A stretch of DNA of 64,000 bases from Lepraria neglecta (taxonomy: Eukaryota > Ascomycota > Lecanoromycetes > Lecanorales > Stereocaulaceae), in assembly GCA_033220425.1 (NCBI GenBank), contig CM065650.1, positions 2,728,001 through 2,792,000 of the forward strand. Direction: 5' to 3'. The translations under genes and the position numbers were made by a program. Below are positions 7,363 through 37,931 of the stretch, in pieces. Within the stretch, counting starts at the first letter, position 1, and each line of letters starts with the position of its first letter. The notes under the pieces were generated by a model. That model made no database searches, was not told the origin of the DNA, and saw only the letters and a list, made by a program, of their open reading frames with translations.

Positions 7363-7369
7363 CCCTTCT

Positions 7370-7381
7370 TAGCTCAGCTGG
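7370..7381 (+). promoter_or_regulatory. Pol III A box of tRNA-Tyr
   Basis: TAGCTCAGCTGG matches the eukaryotic A-box pattern exactly. It sits 97 bp upstream of the B box instead of the usual 30-60 because of the two inserted segments. Confidence 0.8.
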
Positions 7382-7393
7382 AAGAGCGTCCGG

Positions 7394-7444
7394 GTATGCT
7401 CACCCAACGAAGTTTGATTGAAACGTAAATTAATAAGACTGCAG
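7394..7444 (+). other. GT...AG spliceosomal-intron-like insertion inside tRNA-Tyr
   Basis: The 51-nt segment begins GTATGC (fungal donor consensus GTATGT), contains TTAAT as a weak branch-site candidate about 13 nt before the end, and ends CTGCAG. Removing it exactly restores the tRNA-Tyr anticodon stem-loop. Its length matches the local spliceosomal introns (48-60 nt). Whether it is removed, and by which machinery, cannot be told from sequence. Confidence 0.6.
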
Positions 7445-7477
7445 CTGTAATGGTTGAATTGAAACCGGAAGGTCCCT

Positions 7478-7488
7478 GGTTCGATCCC
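7478..7488 (+). promoter_or_regulatory. Pol III B box of tRNA-Tyr
   Basis: GGTTCGATCCC matches the B-box consensus and forms the T arm of the tRNA. Confidence 0.8.
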
Positions 7489-7512
7489 GGGAGAAGGGAG
7501 TTACATCCTCAA

Positions 7513-7518
7513 TTTTTT
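7513..7518 (+). terminator. Pol III terminator
   Basis: A run of six T starts 14 nt after the tRNA discriminator base; a second run of five T follows at about 7525. Both are typical RNA polymerase III stop signals. Confidence 0.75.
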
Positions 7519-36563: not shown

Positions 36564-36615
36564 AGGGGGTGACAAAAGTCGTTAGACACCGAGGTTTAAC
36601 CGGCACCCACCAAAA
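36564..36615 (+). repeat. Left terminal inverted repeat of the Tc1-like element
   Basis: 52 bp pairing with 37967-38018, one mismatch. Confidence 0.85.
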
Positions 36616-36654
36616 ATTTTATACCGCCTAACAGCGCCCTATATTCTATCAATT

Positions 36655-37931
36655 ATGGCTATCCAGCACTCCCCAAGGACCCCAAAACGCGCCCAAAAGC
36701 ACCCAAAAGAGGCTAATAGTCGCTGGAAAGCTAGGTTCTATCACGCTATTGATACACGGGACGATACACAGGGTCTCACTACACTCCCAGACGTTTTTAG
36801 GGCCGAAAAGGTCTCACGGGCTACAGGGTATTTTTGGCTGAAATTACGCAAAGAACTAGGGTCCCCAGGTACTAGACGTACTGGAAAATGGCGTTCTGGG
36901 TGCCCCAGAGCTATTCCGGACGAGACTTTAGGGGAGATGCTTGCCAAAACGAACCCTGTACGCACAGAGCGTATAGAGCACCAAGTCAGCTTTTGGTACC
37001 TACATTGCTGCGTCCGCACCCTAAGACGTACCCTAAAAAATCGCCGAAGAAGAGCTGGGATGTATGTAATGGCGCAGGGACGCCCTATTAGTCCCAAAAA
37101 TCGGAAGGAACGCGTACAATATGGGGAAGAAAATGGGCCTAAGGACTTCTGGAGCTTCTGGCAATATATTTCTTATAGCGATAAGGCTCATTATGACCCG
37201 GATGAGACCCCTAAAGGGCGTGTTCTCCGTGAGATTGGCACCCGTTTTAACGCCGATAATATGCAAATACGCCCTGAAATTTTAGGGGTCAGTGTGCACT
37301 TTTCAGCTAGCGTCTCCTGGCACCATAAAAGCGACCTAACGTTCTATAACGACGAAAACGACCCCCACCGATTACGCCTATATTGCCCCCGAAACCTCGC
37401 CGACGCCCTACAACTGAGACCCCTGAACAGTACGAACAGCGCCTAGAAGAATGGAAAGAACGCCTACCACATAACCCGGGGGTTCAGCCTAAGGGGAACT
37501 CTATAACGCAAGCTTATTATACCGAAAAGATTCTCCCAGGGCTAATCGCTGAGGTTCAGCGTCTTCGGGTAATATTAGGGGAGTACGGGGGGAATATGAT
37601 GCTCCAAGAAGACAACGATCCTAGCCATGGTCTTCGGTCAGGGCCCCTTGGGGCCGCTAATAAGCTGCGCGAAGCCAATTGGATAGCTACCCTAAAACAT
37701 CCTGCCTAATCGCCAGATCTGAACCCTATTGAAGGCCTTTGGGCTATTCTAAAACAGCGTATGCGCCGCCGGAAGCGCCCCCAGACAATAGAGGAGCTCA
37801 AGGCAGCTCTTAGGGAGGAATAGGGGGCTATTATAATGGAAGAGGTGTGCCGGAGGATAGCTGAGATGCCTGCTAAGTGCCGAGAGGTCGCTAAAAATGG
37901 GGGCAGGGCCGTTAGAAGCTCCCTATGGTAG
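36655..37931 (+). pseudogene. Tc1-like transposase remnant
   Basis: The product starts MAIQHSPRTPKRAQKHP with an N-terminal helix-turn-helix region (FRAEKVSRATGYFWLK). DDE parts are ISYSDKAHYDP (first Asp), LQEDNDPSHG (second Asp) and SPDLNPIEGLWAILKQRM (Glu), as in Tc1/Ant1-like fungal elements. The frame slips near 37375; TAA replaces CAA just before SPDLNP (37708) and TAG replaces TGG after AALREE (37821). Both stops fit C:G to T:A change. Inactive. Confidence 0.85.

Follow-up and report, generated by a model that had tools for sequence, protein, structure and literature searches.

Putative spliceosomal introns in nuclear tRNA genes of the lichen-forming fungus Lepraria neglecta

A 51-nt segment that interrupts a nuclear tRNA-Tyr(GUA) gene of Lepraria neglecta is very probably a U2-type spliceosomal intron that belongs to a set of 16 or more in no fewer than ten tRNA genes, judging from the sequence of a 64,000-nt stretch of DNA (the window) and of the 42.0-Mb assembly of 11 contigs that was searched with it. 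The introns of tRNAs, which are removed by a protein endonuclease, and those of mRNAs, which are removed by the spliceosome, are taught as separate worlds. Here, both intron types appear to share tRNA genes, the spliceosomal ones being found in the D, anticodon, variable, and T arms. The first-pass annotation of the window had preferred a spliceosomal-looking intron inside a Pol III-type tRNA gene, an idea that the splice signals and folds described below support and extend to 16 putative introns in ten genes.

The tRNA-Tyr gene occupies positions 7363–7499 of the window, and all of its features lie on the forward (+) strand. The coordinates first proposed for the gene, for a 13-nt intron (7451–7463), and for the 51-nt segment (7394–7444) proved exact, and removal of both segments yields the complete cloverleaf that had been predicted, with 21 of 21 stem pairs. 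The joined exons comprise 73 nt, and the stem pairs (20 Watson–Crick and one G–U) form the acceptor stem CCCTTCT/AGAAGGG, the D stem GCTC/GAGC, the anticodon stem TCCGG/CCGGA with the loop CTGTAAA, and the T stem CCTGG/CCGGG. The anticodon is GUA, the discriminator base is A73, and the terminal pair is C1–G72, the identity pair of tRNA-Tyr. By folding, exon 1 (7363–7393) contributes the 5′ strand of the acceptor stem, the D arm, and the 5′ strand of the anticodon stem (nucleotides 1–31). The 51-nt intron between nucleotides 31 and 32, placed by deletion tests and splice signals, begins with the putative 5′ splice site GTATGC (7394–7399), contains a pattern-matched candidate branch site TTAAT (7430–7434) whose A at 7433 lies 11 nt before the intron end, and closes with the putative 3′ splice site CAG (7442–7444). 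Exon 2, CTGTAA (7445–7450), is only 6 nt long and carries nucleotides 32–37 with the anticodon GTA; it is followed by the canonical 13-nt intron at 37/38, which is of the tRNA-splicing-endonuclease type and has no GT–AG ends, and by exon 3 (7464–7499), which runs by folding from nucleotide 38 to A73. The A box TAGCTCAGCTGG (7370–7381) and the B box core GTTCGATCC (7479–7487), found by pattern against the consensus sequences, are intact in the interrupted gene, and a T6 run 3′ of it (7513–7518) is a candidate Pol III terminator; all three elements had been claimed for the gene and are present.

This gene is not called by ARAGORN at default settings or by Rfam at the gathering score, the permissive Rfam threshold gives no tRNA match, and ARAGORN with long introns allowed misreads it as Ser(TGA). 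A 25-base piece of its 5′ part and a 27-base piece of its 3′ part each occur once genome-wide with up to three mismatches. Among the other interrupted genes, ARAGORN with introns allowed names Arg-UCU as Pyl and does not call Ala-AGC and Trp-CCA. As standard finders can thus miss or misname such genes, the tRNA counts of lichen fungi may be too low.

The further inserts were found by reading tRNA loci of the genome. An Rfam search for tRNAs gave scores for 63 of 1294 candidates; a B-box pattern, for which 100 of 112 matches were listed, gave 30 loci, 11 of which were read, most of the others repeating the same places; the loci already collected were all scanned with a box pattern; and five more places were picked by eye. 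The 40 tRNA-like loci that were read comprise ten with spliceosomal-type inserts, 21 without (L002–L016, L018–L021, and L023, with two genes in L011, assigned by ARAGORN and by eye, deletion-type scoring being applied only to L015), and nine that are decayed, doubtful, or unresolved (L017, L022, L025, L027, two in L029, L030, L096/L099, and L101). Within this last group, L025 and L027 (C5:1909226 and C5:1909560) are two tRNA-Cys-like copies separated by about 330 bases, with T arms that look damaged by eye, and are apparently decayed, and L096/L099 (C6:2832460–2832790) and L101 resemble a T arm and acceptor with no recognizable 5′ half and may be interrupted or decayed tRNAs. A separate observation concerns a repeated element whose end, GGTTCGATTCCTAATGGCGCTGGTACAATGGTGTTGCTGTTTT, recurs with close variants at about 20 of the listed B-box places (for example, L076, L085, L087, L089, and L090) and twice in a few of them, about 150–220 bases apart; it holds the B-box-like GGTTCGATTCC and could represent one end of a mobile element.

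The 16 inserts are 47–61 nt long, start with GT, and end with AG. The ten interrupted genes sit on eight contigs (C1 to C8), the nine besides tRNA-Tyr being distributed over seven other contigs, and every arm except the acceptor stem is affected. In tRNA numbering, the inserts lie at 31/32 in Tyr, 14/15 in Leu-UAG (L098), 49/50 in Glu-CUC (L086), 51/52 in Arg-CCU (L097), the variable loop in Arg-UCU (L024), 59/60 in Ala-AGC (L026), and 61/62 in Trp-CCA (L028). Ser-GCU (L091) has two, at 28/29 and just before 49; Ser-AGA (L102 and L100) has three, at 24/25, at 32/33, and in the variable arm; and Leu-AAG (L071; C1, minus strand) has four, at 11/12, in the D loop, at 27/28, and at 49/50. With a canonical intron in addition, Leu-AAG contains five introns in total, and in its D arm a 5-nt exon, CGAGT, is left between two of the spliceosomal type. 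Canonical 37/38 introns of 13–27 nt are present in six of the ten interrupted genes, and none of the six is GT–AG.

The inserts were spotted by eye through missing arms and GT...AG ends, with CTAAC as a further guide in Leu-AAG and Ser-AGA, and their positions derive from a deletion test that was run after this placement with the other introns of each gene already removed. In this test, all deletions leaving a plausible tRNA length (435 per insert for class I and 1336 for class II) were scored on stem pairs and conserved bases only. The GT–AG deletion reaches the top score in 15 of the 16 inserts; in the sixteenth case, the Ser-AGA insert at 24/25, one deletion exceeds it by 0.1. It is the unique best deletion in four inserts (the first and third of Leu-AAG, the second of Ser-AGA, and that of Trp), two deletions tie as best in Tyr, the first of Ser-GCU, and Glu, and the remaining inserts have 4 to 249 ties. 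For tRNA-Tyr, one of the two tied deletions is GTATGC...CTGCAG, and the other, which is not GT–AG, is by inspection the same cut moved by one base. For the canonical introns of the interrupted genes, GT–AG is among the best deletions in none of six.

When the inserts were shuffled, GT–AG was among the best deletions in none of 300 trials for Tyr, Glu, and Ala, in one of 300 for Arg-CCU, in six of 300 for Trp, and in 30 of 300 for Arg-UCU, which, with two of its 21 stem pairs also mismatched, is a weaker case. Among the class II inserts, shuffles gave this result in zero to two of 60 for seven of ten. In or beside the variable arms, where the fourth Leu-AAG, second Ser-GCU, and third Ser-AGA inserts are found, 240–249 deletions score equally and the fold fixes the boundary poorly; shuffles reach GT–AG in 7, 25, and 38 of 60, respectively. 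Paralogue alignments, made with canonical introns removed, no splice-site preference, and two gap penalties, bear on some of these inserts. With the paralogue Ser(CGA), the third Ser-AGA insert falls precisely on GTAGGT...CATAG whichever penalty is used, and the second Ser-GCU insert is recovered to within one base under one penalty, the stricter one failing; the first two Ser-AGA inserts are merged into a single gap at both. The paralogue Leu(CAG) gives the Leu-UAG insert within two bases and did not reproduce the Leu-AAG inserts, the fourth included. Wherever folding or paralogues set or narrow the boundaries, these coincide with predicted splice signals of the form GT...YTRAY...AG, like those of the protein-gene introns in the window.

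A YTRAY branch site lies 9–12 nt before the end in 14 of the 16 inserts, whereas shuffled inserts have a mean of 0.90 and none of 5000 rounds reaches 14; without Leu-AAG and Ser-AGA, whose placement was guided by CTAAC, the count is eight of nine. The 5′ splice context is GTNNGY, with G at +5 and a pyrimidine at +6 in 15 of 16 inserts each, and a pyrimidine is found at −3 in 15 of 16; the AAG that closes the Ser-AGA insert at 32/33 holds the first AG to follow the CTAAC of that insert. All 16 inserts are free of T5 runs, which is not significant, as 364 of 5000 shuffle rounds are also without T5. By eye, the 5′ splice site GTAAG of the intron that splits the A box in L098 and L071 partly restores that box (TGGCCGAGTAAG and TGGCGTAAGCGA).

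The likeness of GTATGC and CTGCAG, the ends of the 51-nt segment, to those of protein-gene introns in the window had been pointed out at first reading and is borne out by five such introns of 50–66 nt with the same signals, all GT...AG and all with YTRAY 11–18 nt from the end. These were placed by homologous protein alignment (two in Nup192) or by reading-frame continuity (TRP1-type, CDK8-type, and transporter genes), the gene names being recognized by eye and the aldo-keto-reductase-type and SH3-protein regions being left out of the count. Among the best 120 of 206 relatives of the window Nup192, the best named ones are from Lecanoromycetidae sp. Uapishka_2 (67% identity), Alectoria sarmentosa (61%), Lecanora helva (56%), and Psora testacea (55%), a result that points to a lichen-forming Lecanoromycete as the most likely source. 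Elsewhere in the window, a 286-residue open frame (36586–37446, +) looks by eye like a DDE-type transposase.

Spliceosomes normally work on Pol II transcripts, and the genes could carry spliceosomal introns and yet be transcribed by Pol II, which would bring the spliceosome along. The A box is interrupted by inserts in Leu-UAG and Leu-AAG, as is the B box in Ala-AGC, which should harm Pol III transcription and favors Pol II for these three of the ten genes. However, A boxes match in the uncut DNA of seven of the ten genes (that of Arg-UCU deviates even in the joined sequence) and B boxes in nine, T runs are found 3′ of several of them, and the spliceosomal introns of lichen rDNA indicate that Pol I transcripts can also be substrates (PMC8527467). 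Transcription by Pol II is unlikely.

It is far less likely still that the interrupted genes are dead copies whose tRNAs are supplied by intact genes elsewhere. The ten joined tRNAs have 188 Watson–Crick pairs, 17 G–U pairs, and only five mismatches among 210 stem pairs, so that 205 are standard, and branch sites would not arise from random decay. The tRNA census is incomplete, and a second, uninterrupted tRNA-Tyr does exist (L021, C5:4293889–4293975), with a single canonical 14-nt intron. Two of its 21 pairs are mismatched (C10·C25 and A52·C62), and because all four stems of the window gene are intact, the interrupted gene folds better than L021, which strengthens the case first made against a decayed tRNA-Tyr copy. 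The first-pass annotation had regarded several ordinary tRNA-Tyr genes elsewhere as the mark of a dead copy; another gene was indeed found, but only this one, and its fold is damaged. A pattern with TGTAA at the anticodon gave 57 matches, of which only L021 and a doubtful Thr-like locus (L022) are tRNA-like by eye. L033 and L035, which match CTGTAA...GGTTCRA, were rejected as tRNAs, being without acceptor and D arms.

The tRNA-Trp gene bears on the same question. An anticodon-arm search with one mismatch allowed gave 32 matches, five of them with at least four of five stem pairs. A five-pair anticodon stem together with CCA is found in the interrupted gene L028 alone, which argues against dead copies. 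The remaining stem-like matches are one with five pairs and the anticodon CCC and three with four pairs; two of these three carry CCA, but the 24 and 23 bases upstream of them contain no A box. L015 was rejected: although ARAGORN names it Trp, it scores as an Ile(UAU) gene containing a canonical intron, and no CCA cloverleaf can be formed. The sole confirmable tRNA-Trp is the interrupted one; a Trp gene that has diverged or is interrupted in its anticodon arm could be missed. A search with the joined Leu-AAG gave no uninterrupted copy, and as not even its own exons were matched, this empty answer counts only weakly against dead copies.

In another alternative, the inserts would be ectopic tRNA-type introns, as the first-pass annotation had considered for the 51-nt segment, and would be cut by the endonuclease at bulge–helix–bulge motifs, as in Cyanidioschyzon merolae. 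Multiple introns in the D, anticodon, and T arms are known in C. merolae and, with an unknown mechanism, in nucleomorphs (PMC9602550, PMC4090602). Here, a strict 4-bp central helix, as modelled, occurs in none of the 16 inserts (mean of 0.30 in shuffles), and a helix in any of nine registers occurs in two (mean of 2.10), so that no such helix stands above chance; the Tyr insert forms one of four pairs in the strict register and three in the best of nine. Moreover, given the two-intron reading, the 51-nt segment lies at 31/32 and not at 37/38, and GT, the G at +5, the branch site, and AG play no role in the endonuclease pathway. Ectopic tRNA-type introns are therefore highly implausible.

For the window gene, the 51 nt and 13 nt could also be read as one 64-nt intron of the anticodon loop. 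The two-intron reading scores 33.6, against 33.1 for single 64-nt deletions within the anticodon loop and 32.6 for the deletion that falls exactly on 37/38; furthermore, the top score of 33.6 is shared by 36 of 110,793 two-deletion combinations, with the Tyr(GUA) ones among them. The cloverleaf by itself does not settle the reading, and with such near-equal and tied solutions, the decision falls to the anticodon loop, the C1–G72 pair, and the splice signals. The deletion at 37/38 leaves the loop GTATGCA, with the anticodon AUG, G32, and C37, alongside the C1–G72 pair of a tRNA-Tyr; a tRNA-His(GUG) already exists (L013); and a single intron would leave the GT...YTRAY...AG signals and nine other genes unexplained, all of which makes it scarcely credible. 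The reading as tRNA-Tyr with two introns rests on the anticodon loop, C1–G72, the splice signals, and the nine other genes. The introner-like insertion that had also been considered is dismissed, as the 137-base tRNA-Tyr gene matches only itself in the genome (E 0.001) and the 16 inserts resemble one another barely more than their shuffled versions do (pairwise scores with a mean of 7.47 and a maximum of 13, against 6.93 and 14).

If the inserts are spliceosomal introns, the interrupted genes would be transcribed by Pol III from their internal boxes, and the spliceosome would remove the GT–AG inserts prior to tRNA folding and endonuclease splicing. Once the cloverleaf is restored, RNase P and tRNase Z would process it, and the tRNA-splicing endonuclease would excise the canonical 37/38 intron, so that two different splicing machines would be needed. 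It is likely that spliceosomal introns have become widespread among the nuclear tRNA genes (at least 16 in at least ten genes, with up to four in one) and that the spliceosome, acting ahead of RNase P, tRNase Z, and the endonuclease, is obligatory for tRNA maturation, probably even for that of tRNA-Trp. The spliceosome would then act on tRNA precursors with exons of 5–6 nt, the link between Pol II and splicing would be looser than thought, and translation capacity may be tied to splicing capacity in a slow-growing, desiccation-tolerant symbiont. This raises the question of whether lichen fungi throttle their growth through RNA processing, as proposed for rDNA introns. The genes would also offer a natural system for studying how the spliceosome finds Pol III transcripts and how a structured RNA gains introns.

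Relationships to several known systems can be drawn. U6 snRNA genes of some yeasts contain spliceosomal introns, and the inserts resemble these in being mRNA-type introns in a Pol III gene; they differ in the class of gene affected, and U6 is uninterrupted here, in all three full-length matches in the genome. The canonical 37/38 introns (13–27 nt) occur together with the inserts in six of the ten genes but differ from them in position, length, and ends. Spliceosomal introns were reportedly described in the nuclear rDNA of lichen-forming ascomycetes by Bhattacharya et al. in 2000, and since they are known from rDNA there, lichen fungi are a natural place for tRNA ones. The spliceosomal introns of lichen rDNA are reported to be removed from Pol I transcripts, and yeast, too, removes one from such transcripts (PMC8527467); like these, the tRNA inserts are short GT–AG introns in non-Pol II genes of lichen-forming fungi, but their hosts are tRNA genes of the Pol III type, with up to four introns and exons down to 5–6 nt.

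As in C. merolae and nucleomorphs, single tRNA genes contain several introns in the D, anticodon, and T arms (PMC9602550, PMC4090602). Unlike in C. merolae, where bulge–helix–bulge motifs and the tRNA endonuclease are held responsible, the inserts here have putative spliceosomal signals and no such motif stands out; the arm introns of C. merolae are thought to leave before the anticodon intron by another route (PMC9602550). A 2014 review describes eukaryotic non-canonical tRNA introns as supposedly uncommon, with nucleomorphs and C. merolae as the known cases (PMC4090602), and a 2026 review of non-canonical splicing treats tRNA splicing as spliceosome-independent (PMC13149111). No report of spliceosomal introns in tRNA genes was found among the open-access full texts searched. 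The components were already known, and what would be new is their combination, a single genome with spliceosomal introns in many of its nuclear tRNA genes.
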